A stretch of 21,736 nt of DNA from a virus. A program made the position numbers and the translations under genes. The DNA is taken from IMG/VR virus record IMGVR_UViG_3300046000_011284, positions 1 through 21,736 of that record; one strand, given 5' to 3'. Each line of letters opens with the position of its first letter. Position 1 is the first letter of the stretch. The notes below the pieces were generated by a model. The model did not search any database and was not told where the DNA came from. It saw only the letters and a list, made by a program, of their open reading frames with translations. Shown in pieces: positions 1-11,760 of this stretch.

Positions 1-772
1 GATAAGGAAATTTTATAAAATCCCTAATACTAGTAGGATTATTTTTATACGATTGATTTAATTTTTCTGATGATGATAAGGGGATATATTTAAATACATT
101 TTTTAATCCTGTAATTGATGGGAAGTTTTGTTCAACAAATGACCAGGGTTCCCATCTATCCCACTCAGTAGCTCTACCACCAACATCGTTATTTGATCTA
201 TCTGATGCTTTATAGGTATTATCACTACCTACTACAACAACAAAAAAGCTTTTACGATCACTATCAGATAAATTATTATCTTTTACTAAATAAAATGTTG
301 GATTTTTTCTATTAGTATCGTAACGATAATTACCAAATGATCCTCTTGTTATACACCAGCTTTCACCTCTACCATAGTTTAAACAATTATCCTCTTTAGA
401 ACCATTATATATAATTAAACCATCTTGGTTATAAACAACATCAGGTGTAATATCAGCTTCTTCAGGAGCTTCTTCAGCACCTTTAGAAGAAGTAATTATA
501 CGAATCAGTTTAGATAAAGAAACTATAACTTCAGCTTTACCACCAGCTCCTATTTTTACTAAATCAGTTCCCCCCTTTTTAATTATTCCTGATTTTATTC
601 GATCAAAACGTTCAATATATTTTTTTAATTGATCATCAGTAATAGAAATATTTAAATCATCAGCTTCATCACGATAATGTTGCATGATTGTATTTAATAT
701 TCCTTGAGAATATTCATTTAAAGGAAATAAATTATGGACTACATGTAATATAAATTTATCTATTGCTTTCAT
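1..772 (-). CDS. Partial phage protein, paralogue of the central module of the 1125-residue fusion
   Basis: An open frame starts with ATG at 772 and runs off the left edge with no stop, giving 257 codons. I read it directly from the minus strand. Function is unknown. It matches the middle of the protein encoded at 3150-6527 in order: EYSQG (residues 20-24), a Y-I-x-RFD-x-IKS segment (52-61), VYNQDGL-x-IY (113-122), a C-x4-YG-x-G-x-SWCI-x-RG core (130-144) and GLKNVF (222-227). The counterparts there are EYSQG, YINRFDQIKS, VYNQNGLRIY, YGNGYSFCI and GLKDVF. The Trp/Phe-Cys-Ile core resembles a domain I have seen in many phage proteins, but I cannot assign an activity. It begins 10 bases after the stop of the zinc-ribbon gene and so belongs to the same transcription unit. 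The C-terminus is not visible. Confidence 0.85.
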   Translation of the reverse strand, partial: MKAIDKFILHVVHNLFPLNEYSQGILNTIMQHYRDEADDLNISITDDQLKKYIERFDRIKSGIIKKGGTDLVKIGAGGKAEVIVSLSKLIRIITSSKGAEEAPEEADITPDVVYNQDGLIIYNGSKEDNCLNYGRGESWCITRGSFGNYRYDTNRKNPTFYLVKDNNLSDSDRKSFFVVVVGSDNTYKASDRSNNDVGGRATEWDRWEPWSFVEQNFPSITGLKNVFKYIPLSSSEKLNQSYKNNPTSIRDFIKFPY

Positions 773-782
773 ATTCTTATTT

Positions 783-1361
783 TTACCATTTACGGCAGCT
801 CCAATATCTTGCTTTAGTACGTGGTCCTGGGTTAATACAATTGTGTCTTGCTCTAAAGGCTTTACGCCTTACGGGATTATTTTTCTTTATATTCATTCCT
901 TTAGCACCAAAGTTTACTTTTACAACTTTGCCTGTTTTGGGATTTTTAACATATACCTTAAATTTTTTACTATCACCTCTCATCGGTTTACCTAATGGAA
1001 CCGTACGACCTTGATATTTAGCTTCTAACAAACAATCACAAGTAGCTTCATTTAATTGTTGTTGATATTCACGCATGAATTCAATAAATTCTTTTATATC
1101 TTCTTCACTTTCAACATCATACTCATTTATTTGATTACTATTGTCGTGATCACACTTATGACAAAGATAAGGTTCTTGTCCTCCATCTGCTAATTTCCAT
1201 TTCCAACCACACTTTTCACATTCAATCTCTCCATCTATAATATCTTCATTAATAGGAACACAGTTAGGTACTTGTCTACCATCTTTATCTTTCATTCCTA
1301 TTTGCTTATAACCTTTCCAACATGGGGATTTTTCAGATAATAATTCTAATAATTTAATCAT
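783..1361 (-). CDS. Zinc-ribbon phage protein with MIKLL leader and basic C-terminal RHNC/WSC domain
   Basis: The protein has 192 residues from the ATG at 1361. That start is preferred over an in-frame upstream one (1385) because it lies 5 bases after the upstream stop instead of overlapping it, and because it gives the MIKLLELLSE leader shared with three other genes here. Visible modules are the leader with L-S-E at 8-10; a CWKGY-x6-K-x5-PNCVP motif (14-36); a zinc ribbon with C48-x2-C51 and C67-x2-C70; an acidic helical stretch (81-105); a second L-L-E at 111-113 followed by YQGRTVPLGKPMRGD; and a basic C-terminal domain with RARHNC and ARYWSCRKW. I recall similar modules in uncultivated marine phages, without known function. 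The two Leu-X-Glu sites flank module boundaries, consistent with prohead-protease processing (inference). Confidence 0.88.
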   Translation of the reverse strand: MIKLLELLSEKSPCWKGYKQIGMKDKDGRQVPNCVPINEDIIDGEIECEKCGWKWKLADGGQEPYLCHKCDHDNSNQINEYDVESEEDIKEFIEFMREYQQQLNEATCDCLLEAKYQGRTVPLGKPMRGDSKKFKVYVKNPKTGKVVKVNFGAKGMNIKKNNPVRRKAFRARHNCINPGPRTKARYWSCRKW

Positions 1362-1366
1362 ATTGT

Positions 1367-1600
1367 TTATTTTGCGTGCCACCAATTACAACAATACTCA
1401 TCTGCAGGAGCGGGAATTTTAGCATCACCATTATGCCACTGTAGCCAATATTTGTTATTACATAAATTACCCTTTTCAGTCCAATACTCACAGTTAGCAC
1501 ACATTGAACCACCTTTGGTTACACGCATACCTGGTTTATGGTCTGAGGGATATTCTATTTTACCTTCTTGGAGTTTAAGTAATTCGAGTAGACTATACAT
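1367..1600 (-). CDS. Small cysteine-rich protein with LLELL leader, possibly metal-binding
   Basis: This 77-residue protein starts with MYSLLELLKLQEG, a variant of the MIKLLxL leader, with L-Q-E at residues 10-12. The mature part has Cys at 34, 37, 47, 70 and 71 within C-A-N-C-x-Y-W and Y-C-C-N-W-W. The spacing and flanking aromatics recall high-potential iron-sulfur proteins (C-x2-C ... C ... W-C-x-x-W). The second spacer is shorter than usual, so this is a weak analogy and zinc binding is equally possible. The start ATG overlaps the upstream stop by one base (TAATG), implying translational coupling. No function is assigned. Confidence 0.82.
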   Translation of the reverse strand: MYSLLELLKLQEGKIEYPSDHKPGMRVTKGGSMCANCEYWTEKGNLCNNKYWLQWHNGDAKIPAPADEYCCNWWHAK

Positions 1601-1893
1601 TAGTTTAGGTTTTTTAATTTACCATTTTCATTAGAAAGAAATTCAACCTTAGTACGTAACTCAGCTACTTCAGATGTTAACTTTAAAATTAAATTTCGTA
1701 AGTCATCTTTTTCTCGAGATGATTCTTCAAGTAGTGCTTCTAGTTTAGAAATACGATCTTTGCAATCATGACGAATAAAATCATCATCCCTTTCTTTATG
1801 TAGTGCCCTTTTTTCATAATAGCGAAAAGCTGATGTACTTCCCAAAACCGTTATTGCAGTGATTAACACTGTCCATAAGTTGCTATTCTCCAT
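1600..1893 (-). CDS. Single-span membrane protein with coiled coil (spanin/holin-like architecture)
   Basis: The protein has 97 residues. Residues about 6-24 form one hydrophobic segment (WTVLITAITVLGSTSAF). A charged heptad-like coiled-coil region follows to about residue 92, rich in Lys, Glu, Leu and Arg. This layout is that of inner-membrane spanins (Rz-like) and of some phage membrane-anchored scaffolds. There is no recognisable outer-membrane lipoprotein partner overlapping it, so a lysis role is only a possibility. It is separated from the upstream gene by about 46 bases that contain an ATATTTAT element, and its stop overlaps the next start by one base. Confidence 0.8.
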   Translation of the reverse strand: MENSNLWTVLITAITVLGSTSAFRYYEKRALHKERDDDFIRHDCKDRISKLEALLEESSREKDDLRNLILKLTSEVAELRTKVEFLSNENGKLKNLN

Positions 1894-1932
1894 CGTATTT
1901 AATAGATTGATTCGATTAGTAAATCATTACCT

Positions 1933-1940
1933 ATAAATAT
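1933..1940 (-). promoter_or_regulatory. ATATTTAT element at the end of the 1940-2527 gene
   Basis: Copy of the recurrent octamer, 39 bases before the ATG at 1893 and overlapping the upstream stop codon by one base. Its position would suit a promoter core for the membrane-protein and Cys-rich genes, but no partner -35-like box is clear. Confidence 0.3.
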
Positions 1941-2527
1941 CAAGACTCAATATGTTCTTTGAGTTTCTGTATGTATTCTTGTAGTTCTGTGGTGATTTTT
2001 TGCTTATCTACACCCTTACCAGCCCATTTCTCAATATCACCAGCTTCAGTAATGAAACTTTCATTATTATCGTTTAATGCTAACTCTAACATAACATCTT
2101 CTAAATCTTTAATATGAGCTTTAACACCACCTGTTATTAAACCACGGGCGTATTCTTCATAATGGCCTGTAGTTTTAAGTTGGGTTTCCATTGATATAAC
2201 ACAATCAAAACACATTTTATGGATAGGCCACATTTTTTTATTTAATCTATCACCACGCATTGCTTTACTACATTTGGGGCAGATTAATGGTAGATGGATA
2301 GATTCTTTTAATTTATCGAAGCGCGTAACCGTTTGTTTAATGCCGTTTTTAATGGTCCATTGTTTACCATTCTCATCCCATATATCACCCTCTTTATGGT
2401 CAATTTGAGCTTTAGAATAACCGATTTGAGTAGTTGTTTTGGCTGTATAGTCTTTAGTAATGATATTGCGCATTCGTTGCACATCCTTTTCCTTCCAATC
2501 TTTTATAAGTTTTGATTCGTTTCCCAT
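1940..2527 (-). CDS. Conserved phage protein with two-CxxC zinc-binding centre
   Basis: The protein has 195 residues. The N-terminal half carries DVQRMRNII, QIGYSKAQ, EGDIWDENGKQWTIKNGIKQ and FDKLK segments. These are followed by a zinc-binding pair CPKC (about 84-87) and CFDC (about 106-109) with H-K-M between them. The C-terminal part is acidic and helical, ending in a Lys/Glu-rich tail. The family is familiar from large aquatic phages, where it is generally left as hypothetical. Its first 25 bases overlap the end of the upstream GIY-YIG endonuclease gene, which looks inserted immediately in front of it. F-I-T-E-A near residue 160 is a loose match to the Leu/Ile-X-Glu cleavage consensus. 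Confidence 0.85.
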   Translation of the reverse strand: MGNESKLIKDWKEKDVQRMRNIITKDYTAKTTTQIGYSKAQIDHKEGDIWDENGKQWTIKNGIKQTVTRFDKLKESIHLPLICPKCSKAMRGDRLNKKMWPIHKMCFDCVISMETQLKTTGHYEEYARGLITGGVKAHIKDLEDVMLELALNDNNESFITEAGDIEKWAGKGVDKQKITTELQEYIQKLKEHIES

Positions 2528-3099
2528 AACTGTGTTTTTTTATATTTTCCTCTAGGTTTTCCTACTCTTTTTTTGTAGGCTTTATAACGTTTTTTCATTT
2601 TTAATTTAGTCTCTTCAGATCGAGATATTCCTTTAAGGCGTATACTTTGTTCTTTTCCAAACCCTTCAGGTTTAGGTTTACCTTTAGATGTTTTACTAAT
2701 TTTTTCTCCTCGTTCACTGTTTTGATAACAAACATGACCTATTTTACTTTTACTTACTCGTTCGCCAAATCCTTCAGGTTTAGGTTTTTTTAATTTTTGC
2801 TTTGTTTCTTCAGATTTAGGGCCTTCACTATTATCAAATAATTCACAATTTAAACCGTCATTGATAGCATTGTAATGTTGTTTCCAATAAACTTCACGTT
2901 CATTAAGTTGCTCTATAGTACATTCTTCTATTATTTCAAATTGATGGTTATCAACATTATATTTTAAAAATGAATTATATATTTTAGGTTGACGTTTACA
3001 ATCTAAACTTTTATATTGTTTAAATCTTCTTTCTATATTTGTAGATTGACCAATATAAACTTTATTATTTGGATTTATTATTTTATATATTCCTATCAT
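2503..3099 (-). CDS. GIY-YIG homing endonuclease with NUMOD-type DNA-binding repeats (Seg-like)
   Basis: This 198-residue free-standing homing endonuclease acts as a DNA nickase or double-strand cutter that spreads its own gene. The N-terminal catalytic domain has G-I-Y (3-5) and V-Y-I-G-Q-S (13-18), then R25 in the ERRF segment and an E-x-x-Y-W-K-Q-H-Y segment near residues 68-76, the expected place for the family's catalytic Glu. The C-terminal half holds repeated S-E-E-T-K-x-K-x-K and KPKPEGFG units typical of NUMOD3 helix-type DNA-binding motifs, ending in a very basic tail. It lies between the 1125-residue fusion gene and the zinc-binding gene, whose start it overlaps by 25 bases. No split gene or intron is evident around it. 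Confidence 0.93.
   Translation of the reverse strand: MIGIYKIINPNNKVYIGQSTNIERRFKQYKSLDCKRQPKIYNSFLKYNVDNHQFEIIEECTIEQLNEREVYWKQHYNAINDGLNCELFDNSEGPKSEETKQKLKKPKPEGFGERVSKSKIGHVCYQNSERGEKISKTSKGKPKPEGFGKEQSIRLKGISRSEETKLKMKKRYKAYKKRVGKPRGKYKKTQLWETNQNL
2657..2679. repeat. Direct repeat copy 1 within the homing endonuclease gene
   Basis: This 23-base segment encodes the KPKPEGFG unit and recurs at 2765-2787 with one mismatch. It marks a duplicated DNA-binding motif inside the gene. Confidence 0.85.
2765..2787. repeat. Direct repeat copy 2 within the homing endonuclease gene
   Basis: Second copy of the 23-base segment at 2657-2679. The surrounding protein units are only partly alike, so the duplication is either old outside this core or constrained within it. 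Confidence 0.85.
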
Positions 3100-3146
3100 A
3101 TCAATAAATATGTAAAATATTTAAAGAACATGATGTGCTGCTCCAT
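3096..3146 (-). CDS. Possible 16-codon leader peptide ahead of the homing endonuclease
   Basis: An ATG at 3146 opens 16 codons (MEQHIMFFKYFTYLLI) ending in a TGA that overlaps the endonuclease ATG as ATGA. It begins 3 bases after the stop of the 1125-residue gene. It may serve to couple translation or open the start-codon hairpin, but an open frame this short can arise by chance. Confidence 0.25.
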   Translation of the reverse strand: MEQHIMFFKYFTYLLI

Positions 3147-3159
3147 AACTTATTGATAT
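3098..3159 (-). promoter_or_regulatory. Inverted repeat spanning the start codon of the homing endonuclease gene
   Basis: The arms ATATCAATAA (3098-3107) and TTATTGATAT (3150-3159) are perfectly complementary over 10 bases and enclose 42 bases. In the minus-strand RNA one arm covers the stop of the 1125-residue gene and the other runs into the ATG at 3099, so pairing would bury the start codon. T4 homing endonuclease genes such as I-TevI are known to be silenced in early transcripts by start-region hairpins. The stem here is AT-rich, so its stability is uncertain. Confidence 0.45.
3104..3111 (-). promoter_or_regulatory. ATATTTAT element 4 bases before the 3099 start
   Basis: Minus strand reads ATATTTATTGATATG. 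This is one of six intergenic copies of the octamer, three of which sit exactly 4 bases before the start codon. Its role is unknown. Confidence 0.35.
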
Positions 3160-6100
3160 ATTTCTTCGTGTTGTTTGCCGAAATCTCTTAATAAGACTCC
3201 TGCTTGAGCATTTGCTTCGTTTTCTATTTCACTTCCTGTTTTTCCGCTTTCGTAATTAATACGTCCGTCTTCGTCTTGCTTACGATGTACTAATTCATGT
3301 GCTAATGTTCTTAATATATCAGCCATATTTCTATTCCCGCAGTACACCCATATCTTATTAGCATTCGGATCAAAATAACCAAAACTCCTTTTCTCCTTAG
3401 CAGCCGCATTATCGTATGAGAAGGTTAAGTTACGTGGAGGTTTTTGTATTTCCAAGTTTTTGATTGCATACTTTACAAATTCACCTATAGTACCAGTTTC
3501 GCTTTCAGTTAATTTGGTTTTACGTTCTAAACCTTCTTTCATTAATCTTAGTTTAGATAATTCATTTCTATATTCGTCAACTAATTGTTTAATATCTTTA
3601 AAATAATCTTTATACATAGGATTTGAAAAATCTTCCTTTTGATACTTTATAATCCAATCATCTTCAATATTATGGTTCTTATCAGATCCATTATACTGAG
3701 GTATAATTATTTGTTCTATAAATTTTTTCTTTTGATGTTCTAAACTTGTTTGACTTCCTGTTTTTACAATTCTAGATTGTCTTATTGATTCAGTACGATA
3801 GTCATTAACCGCTTCAGTTTTAAGAATTCCAATAAAATTATATGATTCTATTTTATTATTTATAAATTCATCAATAAGTTTATTAGCCTGTATAATGCCG
3901 GAAAAATTATAATTATTATAAATATGATCACCTCTCCACTGACTGCCATATCTATTATAAATTTTATCAAATTTATCATTATATTTTCTCTCAAGATTAT
4001 ATTCTGCTTTTTCTTTTGGATCTATTTTTATAGGCTTAAATACATCTTTTAGCCCTTTAAGTTCAGGATAATCACCCACTACTGGGTCAAATACTTTACT
4101 GTCATCTTCAAAAGCCCCATATTCTTCTTCTCCTTGATTGTCTGCAGTAGTTACAGTGTAATATACTTTAGGTTCATTATATCTGATGTAATTGGTTTCT
4201 TCATCATCATTATAGTCATCGGCTAATTCAGGATATTCATGTATAAATACTACTAACAAATGAGTTGGATCTATAAATTTTCCATTTTCATCTTGTTCAG
4301 ATGATTTTGTATCATCAAACACAAAGTATGGTGTTCCATTATTTTCTATTCTATAATCATGATATAAATTATCTTCTCCACGAGCTGAGATGCAGAATGA
4401 GTATCCATTACCGTATTTAATACAGGCATTTTTAGTTTTACCAACATATATTCTTAATCCATTTTGGTTATAGACTAGATTAGCATCTTTGCTAGGTTCA
4501 CCATCATTTATTTTACCTGCCTTAATACGCTTAGGTTGATTAGCATCAACTATAGTTTCTAATTCTTTCCAACTATATGTTGTGATATCTTTATTAGCTA
4601 CTTCTGGTTTGCTTTTAATTTGATCAAAACGATTAATATATGCTTTGATAATATCTGCTCCTAAATTAGGTTTTTCTTGTTTAAATTTAGTTACTAGATC
4701 ATTAATGGTGCCTTGAGAGTATTCTTTTAAAGGCCAAGGTTTAGGACCTTTTAAATCTAAAACACCCAACAATACTTTAGGTATTTTATTTAATTTTTTA
4801 TAATCAGCTAATATACGACTACCATATGTTAAATAATATCTATCTTGATCATAATTTAAAATCATAGGAGGACCACTAATTTCACTATTTTCGTCTTCAT
4901 GATTTTTATTTTCTAACTTATCCCACATATCGTCAGACATTACTACCATATTACCTACTGTAAAAGCATATCTTACGTCTGGGATTGGTATATTGAATGC
5001 TTGAGCGGTATCTTCAACATCTGCCTCTCTAGATAAAACATAATCAGCAAACATATCATCTTGATTCTGATATTTCCTCTCAGTTACTGGGGCTACAGGA
5101 GCGGTAGGAGCAGGTGTAGGTTGTGGTTCTTCTTTTGTTTCTTTACCTATGGCTCTTAAAAAGTCATTTACTTCAATTCCATCAGGTAAATATTTTCTTA
5201 TATCACCTTCATTTTCATCACGTATTGCTTTTCTAAGATTAGTAGCACTTATATCTTCACCATCTTCAGTTACTGACCCAGCATTGAATATTTTAGCGTT
5301 AGGGTATTTCTTTAATCTCTCATATCTACCCTCATCACCTTTACCATAAGCAGCATATACTGTCAACTCAGGATTATTTTCTACAAAATCATATACATCT
5401 TTAACAGGAGTAATACCAGATATTCTTACTTCAACGTTACCATCTAATTTTTGCTTATATAATTCCCATATAGCAGCACTTTCATCTGCAGTAATACCTT
5501 CATGTGTTTTAGGAGAAATTAAAACAACTACTTGATCAGCATTCTGTAGTAATTTCTTTACTACTTCAAAATGACCTTTATGTGGAGGTTTGAATTTACC
5601 TGGGTATAGGGCTATTGTTGGTTGGTCTTGCTCTAATAATAATGAGGCGAGATACCTACCTAAATTAGTTTCAGTTAATGTGTTATTCACTTTATCTAAT
5701 GATTTTTGTTTATTATCGCCTTTAGGTGTACCTACTTCACCACTTTTAATAGACACCATCGAATTAAAAATACCTTTAATGCGATTTTTTGAGCGTATGT
5801 TTTTTGTCTTAGATGATATATCATTTAATAGATCTTCAAAGCTACCATCTATTTTGTAGTTGGTAAATAACCGCTTGATATTGGACCAATTACTAGTTTT
5901 CCATACTTCAGTGCGGTCAACTTCTTTAAAATTATCTAATGTTACGATACGTAGTGTTAATCCGGCGCTTGATAAATTGAATTCGTATTCTTGATTCGCT
6001 TCAAGTTCAGGTATATTTTTAATACCCATACGAGCAAATATTGCTTTAGGATCTTCTTCCAAACATATTACTTTAGATAATCCTAATAATAATCCTTGTA

Positions 6101-6527
6101 TTTCAGCAGGATAATCTAAAAATTCTTTTTTAAATTCAGCTTCATCATCACTAATAGAAACAATATTATCTATTTGAACATATTCACCTGGTTGTCCTTC
6201 TATAGGATATAGTATAGTGATTATTTCTCCTGTGTTTAGATATTTTTTACCTTTATATTTTTCACTTTTAAAAGGAACAATAATATTATCTGGTAGAGCA
6301 GATAGGAATTTAGCTAATTCTACTTTAATATTTTTCTTATCAGTTGCTTCTAAATTAACAATTAAATCAATATCACCAAAGTCTTCTTTAGCGCTTGTAT
6401 TATATGAGCCTGATACTTTAGCACTTTTAAAAGCAGGAAATTTCTTTAATATCCTGTTGATATAATTATCTACTGTTTTAGCAACAGAAGCTCTAGTAAT
6501 TCTATTTCCACCGGCACTTCCAGACAT
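3150..6527 (-). CDS. Multidomain fusion: nucleotidyltransferase, HxGH adenylyl/cytidylyltransferase, phage Cys module and HExxH metalloprotease
   Basis: The protein has 1125 residues. Domains in order: (1) a polymerase-beta-type nucleotidyltransferase, G40-S41-Y42 ... D52-I-D54, with a third Asp at about D120. (2) A HIGH-superfamily nucleotidylyltransferase from about 303 to 460, with GKFKPPH316-K-G-H319 and I426-S-A-T-N-L-R432 (the ISxTxxR-like motif), as in NMN or pantetheine-phosphate adenylyltransferases. (3) A Pro/Ala-rich linker at 467-482. (4) A module at about 595-835 shared with the gene at 1-772. (5) A charged helical stretch at 835-1005. (6) A zincin domain with H1077-E-L-V-H1081 and a downstream Glu-rich E1102-N-E segment that could supply the third zinc ligand. 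Leu-X-Glu sites at L297-L-E299 and L1006-T-E1008 fall just before domains 2 and 6. The substrate is unknown. Its ATG overlaps the upstream nucleotidyltransferase stop by one base. Confidence 0.9.
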   Translation of the reverse strand: MSGSAGGNRITRASVAKTVDNYINRILKKFPAFKSAKVSGSYNTSAKEDFGDIDLIVNLEATDKKNIKVELAKFLSALPDNIIVPFKSEKYKGKKYLNTGEIITILYPIEGQPGEYVQIDNIVSISDDEAEFKKEFLDYPAEIQGLLLGLSKVICLEEDPKAIFARMGIKNIPELEANQEYEFNLSSAGLTLRIVTLDNFKEVDRTEVWKTSNWSNIKRLFTNYKIDGSFEDLLNDISSKTKNIRSKNRIKGIFNSMVSIKSGEVGTPKGDNKQKSLDKVNNTLTETNLGRYLASLLLEQDQPTIALYPGKFKPPHKGHFEVVKKLLQNADQVVVLISPKTHEGITADESAAIWELYKQKLDGNVEVRISGITPVKDVYDFVENNPELTVYAAYGKGDEGRYERLKKYPNAKIFNAGSVTEDGEDISATNLRKAIRDENEGDIRKYLPDGIEVNDFLRAIGKETKEEPQPTPAPTAPVAPVTERKYQNQDDMFADYVLSREADVEDTAQAFNIPIPDVRYAFTVGNMVVMSDDMWDKLENKNHEDENSEISGPPMILNYDQDRYYLTYGSRILADYKKLNKIPKVLLGVLDLKGPKPWPLKEYSQGTINDLVTKFKQEKPNLGADIIKAYINRFDQIKSKPEVANKDITTYSWKELETIVDANQPKRIKAGKINDGEPSKDANLVYNQNGLRIYVGKTKNACIKYGNGYSFCISARGEDNLYHDYRIENNGTPYFVFDDTKSSEQDENGKFIDPTHLLVVFIHEYPELADDYNDDEETNYIRYNEPKVYYTVTTADNQGEEEYGAFEDDSKVFDPVVGDYPELKGLKDVFKPIKIDPKEKAEYNLERKYNDKFDKIYNRYGSQWRGDHIYNNYNFSGIIQANKLIDEFINNKIESYNFIGILKTEAVNDYRTESIRQSRIVKTGSQTSLEHQKKKFIEQIIIPQYNGSDKNHNIEDDWIIKYQKEDFSNPMYKDYFKDIKQLVDEYRNELSKLRLMKEGLERKTKLTESETGTIGEFVKYAIKNLEIQKPPRNLTFSYDNAAAKEKRSFGYFDPNANKIWVYCGNRNMADILRTLAHELVHRKQDEDGRINYESGKTGSEIENEANAQAGVLLRDFGKQHEEIYQ

Positions 6528-7498
6528 TAGGCTTTTTCTTTTTGGTAAGGAATTAAATTTGAATTATCCGGTAAAAATTTACCTTTTAATCCTAATCTGT
6601 CTTGATTTTCAATCCAATATTTTTGTAAATTATTTGGTATATCTGCTCGAGTTGAATCAAGTATTTTAAGGTATCTATCTATAATAGAATTATATTCTTC
6701 TTTAGATATATTTTTCCTCATAAAATCTTCTAACTTAAAATAATCATCTAGAATATCTTGAGTTAAATTAAAGCCATATAGTTGATTTAATAAATCGATA
6801 GCTTCTTTAGGATTAGATGCTTCTTGTTTACCACTTTCTTTATCAACAACACCTGTAGTATGACCAAATGATTTACCTTTATTAGAGAATAAAGCCAACA
6901 TTAATTGTGTGCGATGCAAACCTTTAACATTTCCCTCATATGATTGGGAATAATAACTAAAACGTAACCATTCAGGATTACCTACATTAATGTCAGTCTG
7001 AACGGCTTTACCTACTTGTTCACCATCAGGGCCATACTGAGGTATGGCGCAGAATAATGATCCGGCACCTGATGCTTTAAGATCTACTTCAACATCAGGT
7101 AAAGTATCATTAATTTTATCCCCAATTAACACAATCATAGCGCGTAATTGAAGTTTTTCAGGAGATGCTGTTCTAGCTTTCTTAGTAAATTGAGCTAATA
7201 ATTCGTTGTATTTATTTTCATCTACACCCCAACCTTTAAAATCAGGTTTACCACCAGGAAATATATTTTTAATATCGTATGATAAATCAATATCACCGGA
7301 TACTGCTTTTTTACCTGCTGAACCTAGTTTTTCAAATGCAGTAAATGTTGATGCTTTAGCTGGGAATACTTGGGATAATTGCTCTACAAATTTTTCAATT
7401 GTAGGTTCAATATTATCTTTTTCAATTGAGTCTGTAGTACCGAATACGTTACCACCTTCTTTTAGTATTTGCTTAGCTAGGTTAAGTAATTTGATCAT
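6527..7498 (-). CDS. Polymerase-beta-type nucleotidyltransferase-like protein with MIKLL leader
   Basis: The protein has 323 residues. The start MIKLLNLAKQILKEGG carries the shared leader, with L-K-E at 12-14. The nucleotidyltransferase signature is LGSAGKKAVSGDIDLSYD: G59-S60 and D69-I-D71. A likely third carboxylate lies in VQTDINVG (D169). A conserved-looking block, NPEWLRFSYYSQSY and GLHRTQLMLALF (about 174-203), follows, then a helical C-terminal part. Enzymes of this fold transfer nucleotides to proteins, RNA or small molecules; the target cannot be read from sequence. The neighbouring 1125-residue protein begins with a second, divergent nucleotidyltransferase domain, so the two may act together. 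Toxin-type (MenA/AbiEii-like) activity is an alternative. It is preceded by a strong hairpin at 7511-7541. Confidence 0.85.
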   Translation of the reverse strand: MIKLLNLAKQILKEGGNVFGTTDSIEKDNIEPTIEKFVEQLSQVFPAKASTFTAFEKLGSAGKKAVSGDIDLSYDIKNIFPGGKPDFKGWGVDENKYNELLAQFTKKARTASPEKLQLRAMIVLIGDKINDTLPDVEVDLKASGAGSLFCAIPQYGPDGEQVGKAVQTDINVGNPEWLRFSYYSQSYEGNVKGLHRTQLMLALFSNKGKSFGHTTGVVDKESGKQEASNPKEAIDLLNQLYGFNLTQDILDDYFKLEDFMRKNISKEEYNSIIDRYLKILDSTRADIPNNLQKYWIENQDRLGLKGKFLPDNSNLIPYQKEKA

Positions 7499-7510
7499 AA
7501 TTAAACATAA

Positions 7511-7541
7511 ATAGGTAGCATGGACAATCCAAGCTACCTAT
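7511..7541 (-). terminator. Perfect hairpin upstream of the nucleotidyltransferase gene
   Basis: ATAGGTAGC (7511-7519) pairs with GCTACCTAT (7533-7541). After one A/A mismatch, inner arms TGGA/TCCA enclose a CAA loop. On the minus strand it is followed by TTATGTTTAATT and then the ATG at 7498. The U-rich but broken tail suits a weak intrinsic terminator for the upstream operon. An mRNA-stabilising or processing hairpin in the leader of the 323-residue gene is equally likely. Confidence 0.55.
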
Positions 7542-7547
7542 AAATAT
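7540..7547 (-). promoter_or_regulatory. ATATTTAT element before the 7511-7541 hairpin
   Basis: Copy of the octamer found in most longer gaps of this window. On the minus strand it immediately precedes, and by two bases overlaps, the hairpin, 41 bases before the start at 7498. It could be part of a promoter for the leftward block. Confidence 0.35.
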
Positions 7548-7559
7548 TGATTATTTTAA

Positions 7560-7685
7560 TTATGCAATTAATTTAATTAAAGTAAAAATTAAAAAAAACG
7601 TAATAAAACCCCATGCTATATCTCTTTCAAGGTTAATTTTTTTACCTGTGTTAAAATTAAATAACAAATCTACAATTTTGTGCAT
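7560..7685 (-). CDS. 41-residue single-span membrane protein
   Basis: A short open frame from the ATG at 7685 to the TAA at 7560-7562, read directly. The first 22 residues are polar/basic (MHKIVDLLFNFNTGKKINLE). Residues 23-40 are strongly hydrophobic (IAWGFITFFLIFTLIKLI), giving one predicted membrane helix with a basic N-terminal flank. It starts 3 bases after the metallophosphoesterase stop (TAAATTATG), as expected for a co-translated gene, and fills most of a gap that would otherwise be unusually long for this genome. Small membrane proteins of this size in phages include holins, antiholins and superinfection-exclusion proteins, but nothing here chooses among them. Confidence 0.6.
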   Translation of the reverse strand: MHKIVDLLFNFNTGKKINLERDIAWGFITFFLIFTLIKLIA

Positions 7686-7688
7686 AAT

Positions 7689-8435
7689 TTAATTATTATA
7701 AATGTGAATTTTTCCGTGTGTATCAATAAGTATAGCACTCATATTTTCCACCCAATCTCCACTATTAAGATACCTCTTACCATTAATTATTCTATCTTCA
7801 GGTTGATGTATATGACCACACATAACCCCATCGCACCCTTTCTTTTCTGCCATTTTTAATGCTGTAGTTTCAAAATCATTAACATAATTAGTAGCAGTTT
7901 TAACACTATTTTTTATTTTTTGAGATATTGATTGATATGGTAATTTACGCCATTTACGATATTTGTTATACCAACGATTTAAAGTTAATGCTATATCATA
8001 TCCAACAGCACCAATTTTAGATAACCATGTATATTTTGTTATAAACACATCAATTATATCACCATGAAAAACATAGTAACATTTTCTCTCCCAATTATCA
8101 TACTCAATATGTTCTGCGTATTCAATTTTATAATCTTCTCTAAATTCAATACCACCAAAATGATTACCTATAAATTCTTGTAAGAATTCATCATGGTTAC
8201 CTCTAATCCAGATTACTTGTATTTTATTAGATAGTTTCAATATTTTACCTAATACTTTAGTATGTTGTTTTTTCCATTTGCTTCCTCTATTTAAAGCCCA
8301 ACCATCAATAATATCGCCGTTTAATATTAAAAGATCAGTGGGGTGATTATCTAAAAACTCTAAAAACTCTTCAGCTTTAGAATCTTTAGTACCTAAATGT
8401 AAATCAGAAACTATTATTGCCTTGTAATTTTTCAT
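7689..8435 (-). CDS. LpxH-like calcineurin-fold metallophosphoesterase
   Basis: The protein has 248 residues from the ATG at 8435. This start forms an ATGA overlap with the upstream glycosyltransferase stop and is preferred to a TTG two codons earlier. All metallophosphoesterase motifs are present: S-D11-L-H13-L-G, G-D41-I-I-D, G-N80-H81-D82, H124-G-D and G-H208-I-H210. The length and the H-G-D spacing fit the UDP-2,3-diacylglucosamine pyrophosphatase (LpxH/LpxG-like) branch more than general phosphodiesterases. The family hydrolyses a pyrophosphate in a lipid-sugar nucleotide at the membrane. With a glycosyltransferase directly upstream, a role in making or altering a glycolipid or surface sugar is plausible, but substrate specificity is not visible. 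Confidence 0.88.
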   Translation of the reverse strand: MKNYKAIIVSDLHLGTKDSKAEEFLEFLDNHPTDLLILNGDIIDGWALNRGSKWKKQHTKVLGKILKLSNKIQVIWIRGNHDEFLQEFIGNHFGGIEFREDYKIEYAEHIEYDNWERKCYYVFHGDIIDVFITKYTWLSKIGAVGYDIALTLNRWYNKYRKWRKLPYQSISQKIKNSVKTATNYVNDFETTALKMAEKKGCDGVMCGHIHQPEDRIINGKRYLNSGDWVENMSAILIDTHGKIHIYNN

Positions 8436-9118
8436 TCCCAATAATTAAAGTCTTGTTTAAAAAATTCATCATTATTTCTGTTTAACCATGATTTCCAAGC
8501 CAGCACAATCATATACCATACACCTTTTTTATCAAATCTTCTACTTGAAGTATAAACGTAATTGTTTGTGATTTTAAAACGATTAGGTTTAATTTTGGAA
8601 CTGAGGTGATAATCCTCGGCAATTTTATCTTCTTCATTGAATCCTTTTAAATTATTAAAGGTTTCTGTTTTAAATAACATAAAACCACCTAAAGCAAATG
8701 GTTTTGTTTTTGAACTATACCACTGGAACAGATCAAATACTCTATATAGCCAGTTATATTTTTTATCTGTTTTATATTTGCAAGTAACTAGATCATATTT
8801 ACCCTTAATAGCACGTCTGATACATCCTTTAATTGTATTTTGTTCTGGAAAAATATCAGCATCTAGAAATAAAATATAGGGTGTTGTTACTAATTTAGCT
8901 CCATTATTGCGGGCTATGGCAGGTAATCCACCTTCAATTACTTCTATATTTTTATATATTGATTTATATTTTTTTAATAACAAAATAGAAGATTCCTCAG
9001 TTGAGGAATCCGCTATTATTATTTTACAATCAATTTGAGATAATATTATTTTTAATAAATCAATTATTCCTTTACCTTCATTTTTGCAAGGAATTACTAT
9101 GGTTAATTGTTGATTCAC
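8432..9118 (-). CDS. Family 2 glycosyltransferase
   Basis: The protein has 228 residues, starting at GTG (9118). No ATG is available near the first beta strand, and the Rossmann-like TIVIPCKNEGKGI must be near the N-terminus, so GTG is the natural choice. GT-A features are the nucleotide-binding first strand (6-15), L-D86-A-D88 (DXD metal/sugar-nucleotide site), GGF-x-L-F-K (acceptor loop, about 144-150) and the A-E168-D169 general-base motif. A C-terminal basic/aromatic segment (RFDKKGVWYMIVLAWKSW) may touch the membrane. It transfers a sugar from a nucleotide sugar to an unknown acceptor. It is coupled to the LpxH-like gene by ATGA. An ATATTTAT element ends 4 bases before the start. Confidence 0.88.
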   Translation of the reverse strand: MNQQLTIVIPCKNEGKGIIDLLKIILSQIDCKIIIADSSTEESSILLLKKYKSIYKNIEVIEGGLPAIARNNGAKLVTTPYILFLDADIFPEQNTIKGCIRRAIKGKYDLVTCKYKTDKKYNWLYRVFDLFQWYSSKTKPFALGGFMLFKTETFNNLKGFNEEDKIAEDYHLSSKIKPNRFKITNNYVYTSSRRFDKKGVWYMIVLAWKSWLNRNNDEFFKQDFNYWE

Positions 9119-9122
9119 ACAG

Positions 9123-9130
9123 ATAAATAT
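9123..9130 (-). promoter_or_regulatory. ATATTTAT element 4 bases before the 9118 GTG start
   Basis: Minus strand reads ATATTTATCTGTGTG. The spacing to the start matches that at 3099 and 12068, and it supports the GTG as the real start. Confidence 0.35.
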
Positions 9131-9131
9131 C

Positions 9132-9917
9132 TTAATTTAATTTTACTGATGTGGGTAATAGTAAAGTCATAGGCTTAAAATCAGGATTTTCCATTTTGTA
9201 TATTTCATATATGTTTTGGAACATCTTAAAATTAGTAGCAATTCCACCATATTGTTTTAATTGCCATCCTTTACCTTGAATTGTATCTCCTTTACCTTCA
9301 CCACGAGTAGATGCTTTTAACCACAATACTCCTGTATCTTCAACTAATTGATTATGGGTTTCATTCCAGGCAACAGCATATGCTGCTAATTGTAAACCAT
9401 AAGATGTATGAAGTGAATTAGATGTTTTAATATCAAGTAACCATACTTTACCATTAATTTTAACAATTAAATCCGCTGTACCAGCGTATTCATGATTATC
9501 TGAAAATAAATGATATTCAGTTACTATTAGTTCGGGTTTATGTGTTGTCCAGAAATCGGCAAATTTAAGAATCATTCTCCAAACATCAAGTGAATATTGT
9601 GCTTTACCATATTCATCTATCCATTGAATTTCTTCTCCATTTAAATAACGATCAATAGCATTATGTACTTGTGTACCTTCGTTTGCTGCTTTAGAAGCAA
9701 TAATATCGGAATTATGTCCTACATCTTTAAGCCAAGCATGAAAAAATTGGTTTTTAGGAAAATAATTTAATACTGATGTAACTGAAGGGTAATATTTATC
9801 GTTGCGTTTATAAAATCTACTATCTAAAACATTTACTTGTTTATCACCTTCGCTATATTCTACAAGACGCTTAATTTTAGGGTCTTTAATAATGTTTACA
9901 TTTCTGTCAATAATCAT
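9132..9917 (-). CDS. PD-(D/E)XK nuclease (RecB/Cas4-like)
   Basis: The protein has 261 residues. The PD-(D/E)XK core shows G81-T-x-x-H85 N-terminal to the core, E134 in a VTEYHLF strand, G146-T-A-D149-L, D162-I-K164-T-S and Q176-L-A-A-Y, the arrangement of RecB-type exonucleases and Cas4-like proteins. There are no iron-sulfur cysteines at the C-terminus, so it is not a typical Cas4. It overlaps the primase stop by four bases (ATGA), which places it in DNA replication or recombination: end resection, processing of Okazaki-type intermediates, or degradation of host DNA. The same signature is found in many phage exonucleases listed simply as PD-(D/E)XK proteins. Confidence 0.9.
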   Translation of the reverse strand: MIIDRNVNIIKDPKIKRLVEYSEGDKQVNVLDSRFYKRNDKYYPSVTSVLNYFPKNQFFHAWLKDVGHNSDIIASKAANEGTQVHNAIDRYLNGEEIQWIDEYGKAQYSLDVWRMILKFADFWTTHKPELIVTEYHLFSDNHEYAGTADLIVKINGKVWLLDIKTSNSLHTSYGLQLAAYAVAWNETHNQLVEDTGVLWLKASTRGEGKGDTIQGKGWQLKQYGGIATNFKMFQNIYEIYKMENPDFKPMTLLLPTSVKLN

Positions 9918-10855
9918 AATAATTGTAATTTTTTTTCAAGCAAACTCTGAAAATTCAGTGGTTGTGTTTGCTCAATATTGTTTAAAAAATTTTCGAAACC
10001 TATTTCATTAGCATCTTTACCTTCCATTTCTACCAAATATATTTCTTTACCGTATGACATTAACATTTCAGCTTGTTTTAAAGCATCACGTCTAGCGTCT
10101 TGATCCAAAGCAATATAAATTCTATCAACAGAAGATTTAACTAATTTTTCCATTAATTTACCATGTATTACCTTTCCAAATAAAGGAATAACATTACGTT
10201 TAATTGTTAATGCATCAAACATACCTTCAACAAGTATGATTGGTGCATCCCAATTTATATATAGTTCAAAACCAATAACGTCTTTAGCCGCCACTGGTGG
10301 ATTTTTGTATTTTTGAGGTGTTTCACCTTTATAATCTCTAGCTATAAAATAATTTAATTTTTTATCATTATCATATGAAGGGATAATAACACGACCTCCA
10401 TATTTACCATCTTTACAAAAACCAATATTGTATTTAATTATATCGTCTTGAGTTAAACCACGTGACTTAAGAAATTTCAAAACGTGCTTTACTTCAATTT
10501 GTAATATTTTATCTAATTTAGTTATATCAATTAATGAAATAAATTCTTTAGGTAATTGTACAGCACCTAATTCAATATTTTTAGTATTATCTGGGATTAT
10601 TAGGATGTTAAGTTCTCCTATTTTATTATCTGGGGCTTTCATCTTTTTAAATAATGAAAGTAATGTTTTACCCTTAGCACTACAAATCCAACAATGCCAA
10701 AAATTTTCACGTTTAGCTGTTGTACGTAAATTAATTTCTAATTTTAGTTTATGATGTGTACAGAATGGACACTTAAAAGCATAATTGCCTTTACTTGTTG
10801 ATTGTCCTTTACCTAGTACTGATTCAATTAAGAATAGTAGAGCTGTATTATCCAT
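9914..10855 (-). CDS. DnaG-type DNA primase (T4 gp61-like)
   Basis: The protein has 313 residues. It synthesises RNA primers for lagging-strand replication. The N-terminal zinc-binding domain has C29-P-F-C32 and H54-C55-W-I-C58. The primase core includes RGLTQDDIIKYNIGF and GGRVIIPSYD (about 132-162). The Toprim domain carries V-E210-G-M-F-D-A-L and L-D251-Q-D253-A, followed by G-K-D281-A-N-E. It is shorter than bacterial DnaG (no C-terminal helicase-binding domain), similar in size to T4 gp61. The stop overlaps the nuclease start (ATGA). No helicase or polymerase is present in the window. Confidence 0.93.
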   Translation of the reverse strand: MDNTALLFLIESVLGKGQSTSKGNYAFKCPFCTHHKLKLEINLRTTAKRENFWHCWICSAKGKTLLSLFKKMKAPDNKIGELNILIIPDNTKNIELGAVQLPKEFISLIDITKLDKILQIEVKHVLKFLKSRGLTQDDIIKYNIGFCKDGKYGGRVIIPSYDNDKKLNYFIARDYKGETPQKYKNPPVAAKDVIGFELYINWDAPIILVEGMFDALTIKRNVIPLFGKVIHGKLMEKLVKSSVDRIYIALDQDARRDALKQAEMLMSYGKEIYLVEMEGKDANEIGFENFLNNIEQTQPLNFQSLLEKKLQLL

Positions 10856-10881
10856 ACTCTCAATATATGAAATAATTTTGC

Positions 10882-11334
10882 CTAAGCAAAATCTTTGCGA
10901 AAGTACTTACCTGCTATATTGTCGTTGTAACTATTATCAATAAACAATACATTATGTACTATTTGTTCTCTTAATTCAAGAAATGTAAGTTGTTTTTTAT
11001 TTTTAGCAAAATTTAATATAACACGTTGAAACTTATCTTCACCTAATAATTTAACATCAGCTAATAGTTCTTTAGATGAACCATAATATGATTTCCACCC
11101 ACTATCTACTTTATCAACTCGGGTTGTTGGTTTACGACCAACACCTGTATGTTCAGCAATTTCTTTTTTAGTGAGTTTTTTCTTTTTATTATGTAAGAAT
11201 GCTTTTTTACCTATATAAAATTTATTTGTTTCCAAATTAGTAATTATATAAGTAAAACCATAATAACCTTCAGTGTGTTCTTCAGGAAATTCATCTAAAC
11301 TTCCGTCATCGAGATGCCATAACCAATTATTCAT
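10882..11334 (-). CDS. GIY-YIG-like phage protein
   Basis: The protein has 150 residues. YGFTYIITNLETNKFYIGKKAF (about 24-45) fits the GIY-YIG first strands, with the hairpin Y-x-I ... Y-I-G-K. A Lys-rich segment and GWKSYYGSSKELLADVKLLG follow, then an LELREQ segment (about 117-122) that could supply the conserved Glu. A family with this layout, with W-x-S-Y-x-G-S, occurs in many T4-like and aquatic phages as a putative endonuclease. Unlike the gene at 2503-3099 it has no NUMOD repeats, so it may be a resident nuclease and not a homing element. It is separated by 26 bases from the primase gene. Confidence 0.7.
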   Translation of the reverse strand: MNNWLWHLDDGSLDEFPEEHTEGYYGFTYIITNLETNKFYIGKKAFLHNKKKKLTKKEIAEHTGVGRKPTTRVDKVDSGWKSYYGSSKELLADVKLLGEDKFQRVILNFAKNKKQLTFLELREQIVHNVLFIDNSYNDNIAGKYFRKDFA

Positions 11335-11343
11335 AAAATTTAT

Positions 11344-11760
11344 TTAAACACTTTCAATATTAATGAAATATTTAGGATCTAAGTAACCTTCTCTATTAGA
11401 TAATATTCTTTCTTCAAAAAATTCAGTAAATTTAGAAATAATAGGTGTTCCTTCTTCTTCAAACTCATCTTTATTCCATATATTCTCTACATTAATTGGT
11501 TCAATTTTATATCTTTCAGATATTTTATTTCCATCTAATGTAATCCTAACATTTAAATCTTTATAATCTAAATATTTAAATAAACCTTTTCCACTTTTAT
11601 CTCTAGTAGCAGCAATATAAAATTGATTTGGATAAAGTCCTGAGTTATCAGGTTCAAATTTTATACCTTTTTCTTTTATACTATTAATAAAAGAACTATT
11701 TGTAAAATGATATAATATACCTACTTGTTTAGCTTCTATTAAGTCTAATAATTTAATCAT
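11344..11760 (-). CDS. ADP-ribosyltransferase-like small protein with MIKLL leader
   Basis: The protein has 138 residues. It begins MIKLLDLIEAKQ, the shared leader with L-I-E at 7-9. The rest shows G-I-L-Y-H-F-T (14-20), an SINSIKEKGI-like helix, a Y-I-A-A-T-R-D strand, V-R-I-T-L-D-G, and a late F-F-E-E-R-I segment. This order (Y-H-x-T near the N-terminus, a Ser/Thr-T-R-D strand, an E-E-R-I near the end) resembles predicted ADP-ribosyltransferase or DarT/RES-type folds seen in phage proteins. The resemblance is by pattern only and NAD+ use is unproven. T4 packages its Alt ADP-ribosyltransferase in the head, which would fit the leader. The gene overlaps its upstream neighbour by one base. Confidence 0.75.
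   Translation of the reverse strand: MIKLLDLIEAKQVGILYHFTNSSFINSIKEKGIKFEPDNSGLYPNQFYIAATRDKSGKGLFKYLDYKDLNVRITLDGNKISERYKIEPINVENIWNKDEFEEEGTPIISKFTEFFEERILSNREGYLDPKYFINIESV

Follow-up and report, generated by a model that had tools for sequence, protein, structure and literature searches.

Why would one phage place nearly the same short peptide in front of proteins that are otherwise unrelated? An earlier note, made from the sequence alone, had described four such genes in a viral DNA fragment of 21,736 nucleotides (hereafter the window, meaning this whole stretch), each with a MIKLLxL leader ending in Leu-X-Glu, and had read the leaders as capsid-targeting peptides on proteins packaged in the head and injected with the DNA. 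All coordinates and N-termini were confirmed: four minus-strand genes encode a leader of 9-14 residues with hydrophobic-x-Glu at its end, and the proteins beyond it show no significant mutual similarity (BLASTP-short; best non-leader match E 0.15). The proposed common start and ending held only in part: MIKLL opens three of the four genes and MYSLL the fourth, the residue at P3 is not always Leu, and leader length varies (10, 12, 14 and 9 for genes 783-1361, 1367-1600, 6527-7498 and 11344-11760, respectively).

1332..1361, minus strand: leader MIKLLELLSE (10 aa) of gene 783-1361; predicted cut after Glu10, next residue K
1565..1600, minus strand: leader MYSLLELLKLQE (12 aa) of gene 1367-1600; predicted cut before G
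7457..7498, minus strand: leader MIKLLNLAKQILKE (14 aa) of gene 6527-7498; predicted cut before G
11734..11760, minus strand: leader MIKLLDLIE (9 aa) of gene 11344-11760; predicted cut before A
783..1361, minus strand: mosaic cargo with a PCWKGY...VPNCVP segment, a zinc-ribbon-like Cys segment (CEKCGWKW...CHKC) and a DUF5754-like C-terminal module
1367..1600, minus strand: Cys-rich cargo (HKPGMRVTKGGSMCANC...), 61 homologous loci
6527..7498, minus strand: Pol-beta superfamily nucleotidyltransferase (NTase) cargo (AF2 mean pLDDT 86; Foldseek)
11344..11760, minus strand: cargo of unknown fold with a YHFT motif; an ADP-ribosyltransferase (ART) fold is possible, unproven

A T4-type propeptide is expected to stand before unrelated proteins, which is the case here, and to carry hydrophobic residues at positions 4, 7 and 8 with Glu at P1. 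Gene 783-1361 fits exactly, genes 1367-1600 and 11344-11760 fit with Glu at 12 and 9, respectively, and gene 6527-7498 carries Ala8 and Glu14 in its leader. MIKLLELLSE matches the pattern M..h..hh.E, as do T4 IPII, IPIII, Alt and gp24; T4 IPI falls outside this ten-residue pattern.

The leader is constrained up to its terminal Glu

Within the window, 3 among 23 ORFs start with M[IV][KR][LI], versus 9 of 8024 internal Met (binomial P 2.5e-6). This test is post hoc, as the motif had already been chosen in the earlier note, and the genome-scale tests are the reliable ones. Across 14 related genomes, M[IV][KR][LI] starts were found in 61 of 2358 proteins, versus the same 9 of 8024 internal Met (p 2e-30). 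The pattern M..h..hh.E, derived from the leaders of T4 and of the window, gave 51/2358 starts versus 19/8024 internal Met (p 6e-19), with the full pattern present in 39 of the 61 M[IV][KR][LI] starts versus 12 of 995 other M..h starts. Control records (four contigs without an S77 match, plus crAss001) yielded 2 and 0 of 429 for the two start patterns. Some M[IV][KR][LI]-starting proteins were plainly other proteins, and a hydrophobic-x-Glu ending at 9-15 was absent from 14 of the 61.

The constraint is position-specific. Among 27 non-homologous family representatives, positions 7 and 10 exceeded all 500 null samples and positions 5, 6 and 8 exceeded at least 489, while position 9 and positions 11-22 were at background, so that the constraint ends at Glu10. 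When IMG/VR was scanned with the Glu10 pattern, at least 145 of 151 matches lay at ORF starts, in at least 63 families (the scan halted at 120 loci, making match and family counts lower bounds); with Asp10 instead, at equal degeneracy, only 9 of 37 did. The Glu11 pattern, intended as a control, likewise gave enough matches to halt the scan, and where Glu was at 11 without Glu10, 39 of 42 had L, I, M or V as residue 9. A reversed-pattern control produced 0 matches, but it is weak because the pattern contains stop-like triplets. In 84,980 bacterial and archaeal genomes, the leader pattern gave 44 matches, 19 at ORF starts. Two further N-terminal classes were observed.

Individual families show the same behavior. 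L4, L12 and E14 of the NTase leader were kept in 19 of 19 distinct N-termini using two to five codons each (Glu14 as GAA 12 times and GAG 7 times, Leu4 by five different codons), and P2 was the most variable among the first 24 positions. This leader lies outside the confident AF2 fold (pLDDT < 50 for residues 1-16). One cargo can also carry different leaders with the Glu kept: homologues of the MYSLL-starting gene in other contigs have MIKL, MISL, MHKL or MKL ahead of the same cargo, and in homologues of gene 1367-1600 leader sequence and length vary while the cargo start is nearly fixed. The NTase of Flavobacterium phage immuto has no leader and begins M-GGNVF; the window counterpart reads LKE/GGNVF (the slash marks the predicted cut), an exact coincidence with the predicted cut. 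Absence of the leader in homologues had been named in advance as a refutation; the outcome is thus mixed, a leaderless homologue that yet begins at the predicted cut.

A prohead protease and a capsid site in related records

As the earlier note had suggested, the prohead protease and its consensus in the major capsid protein were sought, and both were found in relatives. The window is a 21.7-kb fragment, and the counts refer to related records, not to the window. An S77 prohead protease scored above cut-off in 12/12 and 6/7 related records, including G013, which encodes an NTase 92% identical to that of the window. In the capsid protein, [LV]-x-E/[AST] was present in 11 of 11 aligned relatives at the place matching T4 gp23 FLTE/AE, a correspondence judged by eye. 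S77 also occurred in 14 of the 25 leader contigs that measured at least 41 kb. The remaining 11 had no Gp23 or T4 portal above cut-off and Terminase_6N in 0/11, compared with 4/4 head-bearing relatives; these absences make it likely, without proving it, that they are fragments.

Leader genes are also enriched near the head genes, with M[IV][KR][LI] starts in 15 of 146 genes of the portal-to-capsid interval versus 46 of 2212 elsewhere (p 2e-6), and in 8 of 14 genomes they stand between the genes for the prohead protease and the scaffold. No MIKL gene was found between portal and capsid genes in the other six (G001, G002, G010, G013, immuto and G012, whose record ends within this region).

Tagged cargo is diverse

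Beyond the leader, the NTase matched DNA polymerase beta best in Foldseek (top E 6.5e-5, prob 1.00, TM 0.3). Gene 783-1361 matched phrog_7595 (3e-12, residues 114-192) and, weakly and under the family cut-off, PF19058 (E 0.0056). Its parts recur separately behind leaders: a related zinc ribbon in G005 2173-2760, a PCWDGY segment in G005 10103-10633, and, in G013 146012-146389, the DUF5754 part with the first two segments absent. Searches of Pfam and PHROGs with gene 1367-1600 returned nothing at E 0.05. The label ADP-ribosyltransferase-like, given earlier to gene 11344-11760, was not established: it had no Pfam or PHROGs match, its profile matched DarT (0.22) and RNA 2'-phosphotransferase (0.25) in the PDB without significance, and its AF2 model was of no use (pLDDT 36). 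The fold remains a weakly supported possibility. A homologue at L361 reads MIKLIDILRE/AKQVG, followed by the same AKQVG..LYHFTN start as in 11344-11760.

Across the wider set, tagged cargo leans basic (median pI 8.1 for 62 tagged families versus 5.9 for 1723 genes of seven relatives). Clear enzyme domains include NUDIX (4e-14), RNase_T (7e-11), Zeta_toxin (9e-9) and RimK ATP-grasp (1e-32), and a 2H phosphoesterase was found behind the related leader MKLRKILKE. For 12 of 20 tagged proteins, no Pfam family scored above cut-off.

Cleavage-like sites also lie between modules

3150..6527, minus strand: 1125-aa multidomain protein, no N-terminal leader (Pfam profiles)
1023..1025, minus strand: codon of Glu113, P1 of the predicted internal site CLLE/AKYQGR in gene 783-1361
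5631..5633, minus strand: codon of Glu299, P1 of the leader-like internal stretch NLGRYLASLLLE/QD in the 1125-aa protein

All 70 distinct entries have [VLMI]-x-E/[ASG] ahead of the DUF5754-like module, and 5 of 10 small-phage copies examined begin M-AKY, i.e. at the predicted cut. V and M also occur at P3 in capsid or DUF5754 sites. The 1125-aa protein combines a weak Pol-beta-type NTase start (PF18765, 0.015, and PF20573, 0.0078, both under cut-off), a CTP_transf_like/NadR domain (PF01467, 8.3e-5, above cut-off) and a weak C-terminal metallopeptidase-like part, with the Glu299 stretch directly ahead of the NadR/cytidylyltransferase-like domain. Elsewhere, a NadR-related domain stands behind an N-terminal leader (MNRLAQFLIE in G008 45026-47374; MKGLAKFLVE in L074), and three copies (L129, L120 and L205) have a very short leader or none.

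Interpretation and alternatives

The leaders are very likely T4-type capsid-targeting propeptides on a large, exchangeable and partly polyprotein-like cargo set, and this explanation includes a source phage that is a T4-like myophage related to immuto. The main sequence-level predictions of this reading were met (residue constraint, Glu and not Asp at P1, S77 protease, capsid site, gene context, leader exchange on one cargo and the leaderless orthologue), though not in every genome or at every start, as counted above. Packaging, cleavage and injection with the DNA remain inferences, with no virion data. In this model, the leader (hydrophobic at 4, 7 and usually 8, terminal Glu) would associate with the prohead core during assembly, bringing any fused protein into the head; the S77 protease would cut after hydrophobic-x-Glu, releasing mature cargo that would exit together with the DNA at infection. 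The tag is exchangeable, with dozens of unrelated proteins sharing it and one cargo bearing different tags across phages, and module strings with internal sites may give several mature proteins from one precursor.

The best surviving alternative is that the leaders target the prohead and are cut, with the cargo being assembly factors (scaffold, core or chaperones), whether retained in the head or lost from it, rather than injected effectors. In its favor, several genomes encode one leader family, the HFLEIISTYGQHR proteins, between the protease and the scaffold, where it may belong to the core, and the scaffold protein itself opens with an LLKEAIAD-like sequence. However, the exact tag occurs on at least 63 families, several of which have clear enzyme domains that would not be expected of scaffolds, and we consider this unlikely.

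Far less plausible is an AT-rich nucleotide start context, or a signal for membrane or folding, without a role for any protease. The GC content of the window is about 30%, and MKKLLLL signal-like N-termini joined the same similarity cluster in an unsupervised comparison. Against this, the fixed residues of the NTase leader persist while codons vary, Glu is kept and Asp is not, a hydrophobic residue 9 accompanies Glu11, and at two loci (L269 and L276) the leader lies within a longer protein with no start codon ahead of it. Functionless spread by recombination would be easy among leader genes that are often close together (two or more at 24 of 115 loci), but it is very hard to reconcile with a constraint that halts at Glu10 over 27 families and with exchange of leader sequence and length while Glu is kept.

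Implications of a readable packaging tag

Packaged proteins are normally learnt by virion proteomics of cultured phages. If the targeting reading is right, a tag readable in sequence would allow the proteins packaged by uncultivated T4-like phages to be predicted and the predictions to be tested, covering at least 63 IMG/VR families. T4 IPI acts against a restriction system, and one E. coli strain supports T4 only with IPIII, which by its authors' inference overcomes a defense there (PMC9026906, PMC9391042). Given these precedents, the tagged families, with 12 of 20 tested proteins lacking a Pfam family above cut-off, form a candidate list of counter-defense and take-over proteins, roles that are inferred. 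Internal sites, if cut, would make the prohead protease a cargo polyprotein processor, which is not described for T4 in the literature examined.

A bolder reading, which as a whole we favor by a narrow margin, is that Bacteroidota T4-like phages deploy a secretome of virion-borne effectors, marked by a readable ten-residue code. The tag would admit almost any protein, the head protease would double as a polyprotein processor before injection, and the effectors would be zinc ribbons, nucleotidyltransferases and NAD-synthesis, Nudix, kinase-like and 2H phosphoesterase enzymes. The code, with other consensus sequences, would run through T4-like phages generally, and cargo would be traded between packaging phages and small phages expressing it from the genome.

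Comparison with known systems

Capsid-targeting sequences (CTS) of T4 IPII, IPIII and Alt, the gp24 propeptide and the gp21 protease, which we take to be a member of PF03420, are well described (PMC9026906, PMC9958956, PMC3012670). Mutagenesis of IPIII assigned targeting to residues 4 and 7 and processing to residues 8 and 10, and it was already suggested that T4-like phages could use a CTS to incorporate various proteins (PMC9026906). The leaders described here share with them a short N-terminal peptide, hydrophobic 4, 7 and 8, Glu10 and the L/I-x-E motif, together with an S77-family protease in related records, basic-leaning cargo and non-homologous proteins behind the leader. They differ in consensus (MIKLxDILxE versus MKTYQEFIAE in T4), a length of 9-14, far more cargo families, V/M at P3 of capsid or DUF5754 sites, sites between modules and, judged by immuto's host, another host phylum. 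The pattern also picks one T4 ORF (8908-9165), which to our knowledge is not known as a head protein.

Polyvalent proteins and head-packaged NAD/ADP-ribose enzymes are similarly multi-domain early effectors, bearing ART, Nudix, 2H phosphoesterase and kinase domains, for which packaging and injection have been inferred (PMC5512222, PMC9503650). Polyvalent proteins join several effector domains, often with a peptidase, in one chain; in the 1125-aa protein only CTP_transf_like scored above cut-off, with Polbeta and the putative metallopeptidase DUF6782 under it. For the known proteins, packaging was inferred from fusions and gene context and processing from peptidase domains in the same chain; in the present case both tasks would fall to a short leader and the head protease. 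PMC9503650 names no packaging leader ('targeting sequence', 'CTS' and 'propeptide' have 0 occurrences). In phiKZ and SPN3US (PMC5694885, PMC10052503, PMC9026906), ejected head proteins likewise have N-terminal propeptides cut by a gp21 homologue at a short motif with terminal Glu. Unlike in the window, that motif is S/A-x-E or A-x-E and several propeptides exceed 100 residues, with only SPN3US gp45 of T4-like length.

Four unrelated proteins in the window carry a short N-terminal leader

The window comprises 21,736 bases at approximately 30% GC, and all 23 ORFs retained from it lie on the minus strand. These are our own gene calls, made without a gene finder by taking the longest ORFs, removing overlaps greedily, and starting each at the first ATG within 45 codons. 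The earlier note had proposed that four genes encode a common leader followed by unrelated proteins. Both points held, and all four leaders end in hydrophobic-x-Glu. These genes and three other features are as follows:

783-1361, minus strand: zinc-ribbon-like protein, leader of 10 residues
1367-1600, minus strand: Cys-rich protein, leader of 12 residues
6527-7498, minus strand: nucleotidyltransferase (NTase), leader of 14 residues
11344-11760, minus strand: protein with a YHFT motif, leader of 9 residues
2503-3099: GIY-YIG protein, homing endonuclease type, near leader genes
10882-11334: GIY-YIG protein, SegE type, near leader genes
14277-15518: predicted protein from the tail gene region, containing a long TTTTSTTTT(AAP) repeat rich in Thr

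A partial gene at the edge (1-770, minus strand) resembles, by eye, the C-terminal half of a 1125-residue protein, including an EYSQG stretch among others, and might represent a duplicated module.

The large protein encoded at 17907-21650 resembles a protein of Flavobacterium phage immuto (33% identity, 62% of the query covered), a 160-kb phage whose annotation includes T4-like Gp20, prohead core serine protease, Gp23, and tail sheath. Leader genes 6527-7498, 11344-11760, and 1367-1600 are present at 100% identity in a 57-kb related record, G014, and the NTase at 92% identity in a 183-kb record, G013. G013, immuto, and 12 IMG/VR records found via the zinc-ribbon protein make up the 14 related genomes used below.

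The leader is enriched at protein starts and ends abruptly

In the 14 genomes, M[IV][KR][LI] was found at the start of 61 of 2358 predicted proteins, compared to 9 of 8024 internal Met residues, and M..h..hh.E (h, hydrophobic) at 51 of 2358 compared to 19 of 8024. In control sequences the counts were 0/429 and 2/429, respectively. The controls were four contigs without a match to S77 (the gp21-type prohead protease family), taken from 11 records with distant Cys-rich homologues, and bases 1-100000 of crAss001, itself unsearched for S77. The M..h..hh.E counts are not an independent test, the pattern having been modelled on a T4 leader and the window leader; it was first applied before the T4 genome was consulted. 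In T4 itself it matched 4/260 starts compared to 1/843 internal Met (p 0.012). With other starts allowed, six ORFs matched, namely those of IPII, IPIII, Alt, gp24, and 61.1 plus an ORF at 8908-9165. The T4 leaders are MKTYQEFIAE (IPII, IPIII), MELITELFDE (Alt), and MAKINELLRE (gp24); IPI did not fit the pattern within ten residues. Gene 61.1 (NC_000866 18966-19130), annotated as hypothetical, has a CTS-like start, MKTFKEFIKE/D (here and below, a slash marks the predicted cut).

To locate the end of the tag, proteins were selected on residues 1-4 only and downstream positions compared with 500 null samples. Across 27 families, positions 7 and 10 exceeded all 500 nulls and positions 5, 6, and 8 at least 489, with position 9 and positions 11-22 at background. 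The profile is that of hydrophobic-x-Glu, after which the tag ends abruptly. Since the family table predates G013, 32-family versions may double-count its proteins, and the 27-family figure, without G013, is preferred; in a 32-family run to position 26, the values at positions 17, 18, and 24 were matched in 26, 47, and 32 of the 500 nulls. In T4 IPIII, residues 4 and 7 are mainly responsible for targeting and residues 8 and 10 for processing; the motif recognised by the T4 protease is L/I-x-E (PMC9026906).

IMG/VR was then scanned with a codon pattern for MIKLxDILxE, in which YTN also admits Phe; a match counted as an ORF start if the ORF ran to at least 45 codons and the preceding stop was no more than 40 codons away. 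The scan returned at least 120 loci, and 145 of the 151 matches examined lay at ORF starts, in at least 63 families; two or more matches were present at 24 of 115 loci. Replacing Glu with Asp at equal degeneracy gave 37 loci in total, with 9/37 matches at ORF starts. In T4, Asp at position 10 inhibits processing yet permits targeting (PMC9026906). A Glu11 scan, which returned at least 120 loci (111 of 120 examined), was rejected as a negative control: 29 of its 71 ORF-start matches also carry Glu10, and 39 of the remaining 42 have L, I, M, or V as residue 9, so the site has shifted as a unit. Across 84,980 genomes of bacteria and archaea, the Glu10 pattern occurred 44 times, 19 times at ORF starts, and at least one of these contigs, L497, has three matches and looks phage-like.

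Most leader-bearing relatives encode an S77 protease and have a putative capsid cleavage site

The gene order in relatives runs from portal through S77 protease and scaffold to major capsid protein, with other genes between. M[IV][KR][LI] genes occur within the portal-to-capsid interval in 8/14 genomes, accounting for 15/146 genes inside compared to 46/2212 outside. Related records G005 and G006 each have five adjacent genes with a MIKL Met between protease and scaffold, although in each genome one Met lies downstream of the called start and Glu is not at position 10 in all. A G005 gene in this gap (2173-2760) encodes a zinc-ribbon protein resembling that of the window. The interval had no such gene in G001, G002, G010, G013, or immuto, nor in G012, although the G012 record stops inside the interval. 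G010 and G013 instead have another N-terminal class there (KQ.I.E..R.Q.LAG or similar).

S77 scored above cut-off in 12/12 and 6/7 leader-bearing relatives; the seventh is G014, whose portal is 3.2 kb from its end. Among leader contigs of at least 41 kb from the pattern scan, 14/25 had S77. This survey covered 25 of 27 such contigs, omitting L381 (already included as G002) and L386, and 40 of the 120 loci lay outside it. The 11 contigs without S77 had no Gp23 or T4 portal above cut-off (a single sub-cut-off match for each of these two families), no S78 protease, and no Terminase_6N at E 0.01, the last of which was found in 4/4 head-bearing relatives. They therefore appear to be fragments lacking head genes. 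In the capsid protein, [LV]-x-E/[AST] was present in 11/11 aligned sequences where, by eye, T4 gp23 has FLTE/AE.

Leaders vary among homologues and can be absent

Leaders on the Cys-rich cargo include MYSLLELLKLQE, MHKLTELLGLITE, MIKLTDLLKE, MISLIQILKE, and MKLIDALLLE, with the cargo start G-x-x-EYP nearly fixed. Among 11 records with distant Cys-rich homologues, the single S77 match was in the 369-kb record G022, whose homologue has a leader-like MKLRLVQLRRVIKEE. Comparing Cys-cargo records of at least 39 kb, S77 was found in 9/10 with a leader and 0/4 without (p 0.005). The 11 records were chosen by eye, and other leader-bearing Cys-cargo records of at least 39 kb, as well as locus L275, were outside the comparison. 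Because the records are non-random and those with a leader are not closely related to those without, this association is only a correlation.

Absence of the leader in homologues had been named as a potential refutation. The immuto NTase is leaderless, beginning M-GGNVF four codons after the preceding stop, exactly at the predicted cut (LKE/GGNVF or similar in the window and its kin). A structural model of the NTase has a pLDDT of 86, with residues 1-16 below 50. Foldseek matched DNA polymerase beta (E 6.5e-5, TM 0.3), at superfamily level only.

Two other explanations were considered. The first was signal or lipoprotein peptides; in an unsupervised N-terminus comparison of non-homologous proteins the MIKL leader fell in the largest cluster together with signal-like peptides. 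This was rejected, as the MKKLLLL types that cluster nearby lack, by eye, the fixed Glu. Start-codon context as the cause was rejected because leader codons vary: among 19 distinct NTase N-termini, Glu14 is encoded by GAA in 12 and by GAG in 7, and Leu4 and Leu12 each use five codons, so selection acts on the peptide. This table includes only ORFs with GGNVFGT and a Met 14 residues earlier, so neither immuto's copy, which has no leader, nor the L205 fusion is counted.

Taken as T4-type capsid-targeting leaders, the reading first made from sequence alone, these peptides are very likely correctly identified; that their cargo comprises injected effectors is likely, with injection inferred. Such leaders in uncultivated phages were undescribed in the open-access titles and abstract openings searched, which did not cover subscription journals or preprints, and no title on immuto virion proteins was found in that literature.

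Internal sites suggest polyprotein-like cargo

A DUF5754-like module is preceded by [VLMI]-x-E/[ASG] in 70/70 distinct entries, with nine different residues at P2 and Glu at P1 throughout (P1 and P2 being counted backwards from the predicted cut). Entries were de-duplicated by N-terminus and junction (70) or by junction alone (51). Phages C48C1, HTVC008M, and Melnitz also conform, and C48C1 has a T4-like start, MKKFKQYIDE, 17 residues ahead of the module. Among ten small-phage copies, those of Kolga and four other pelagiphages begin M-AKY and that of CRP-902 M-ATYKG; CRP-2, CRP-6, CRP-738, and HTVC106P have other starts. The window's 1125-residue protein has NLGRYLASLLLE/QD ahead of a NadR-like domain, and in the Cys-rich homologues L269 and L276 the leader is internal to a longer protein, with no start codon before it. 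These sites probably mark polyprotein-like cargo processed by the head protease, although cleavage at them is inferred.

Cargo identities

Of 20 exact-tag proteins (19 families), eight had a Pfam family above cut-off (Zeta_toxin/AAA_33, LRR, NUDIX, RNase_T, AAA, DUF5824, Phage_lysozyme2 with Peptidase_M23, and RimK) and 12 had none. A phage tail lysozyme with peptidase M23 behind MIKLKDILTE (L412:1725-2969:+) is unexpected for head cargo. For 11344-11760, the AlphaFold model was too poor to use (pLDDT 36, two sequences), a seven-homologue profile gave no significant PDB match, and tblastn in annotated phages nothing at E 0.01.

Proteins that resemble 2H phosphoesterases and have two HxT motifs follow a leader, MKLRKILKE in G005 and G006, at:

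G005 139891-140487
G006 40708-41277
L442:96-635:-

Pfam was tested on the G005 copy of the G005/G006 protein. 2_5_RNA_ligase2 scored 35.4 bits for G005, above the cut-off of 27, and 22.4 for L442, below it. Identification as Acb1 was rejected (25.2 bits for G005, 20.7 for L442, cut-off 27), and BLASTP gave no convincing match to T4 57B. It is possible that these are packaged cyclic-nucleotide enzymes, distantly Acb1-like. On the evidence of fusions and context, others have proposed head packaging for Nudix, ART, and 2H proteins (PMC9503650). T4 IPI acts as an inhibitor of a restriction system, and on one strain the phage requires IPIII (PMC9026906, PMC9391042); by inference, leader cargo may act similarly.

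Other N-terminal classes

The unsupervised comparison also yielded two N-terminal classes besides MIKL. The second, approximately K.SELR.LIKEAV[KR]E, occurs on unrelated proteins (33 proteins, 18 families), some encoded between portal and protease genes. The third, approximately M.KQ[FYQ]I.EA.R.Q.LAGI..E (about 20-23 residues), is found on differing proteins, several adjoining the prohead protease.

Members of the second and third N-terminal classes
Second: G004 125334-125648; G007 41215-41508; G003 31592-31918; others
Third: G003 151403-152184; G010 25077-25601; G013 124994-125599 and 128276-128635; immuto 25061 and 111675

Four immuto proteins (103806, 117631, 118632, and 1803) share MENFDLKKFLVENKLT.NS.L..E-like starts, which may be a leader of this type but longer.
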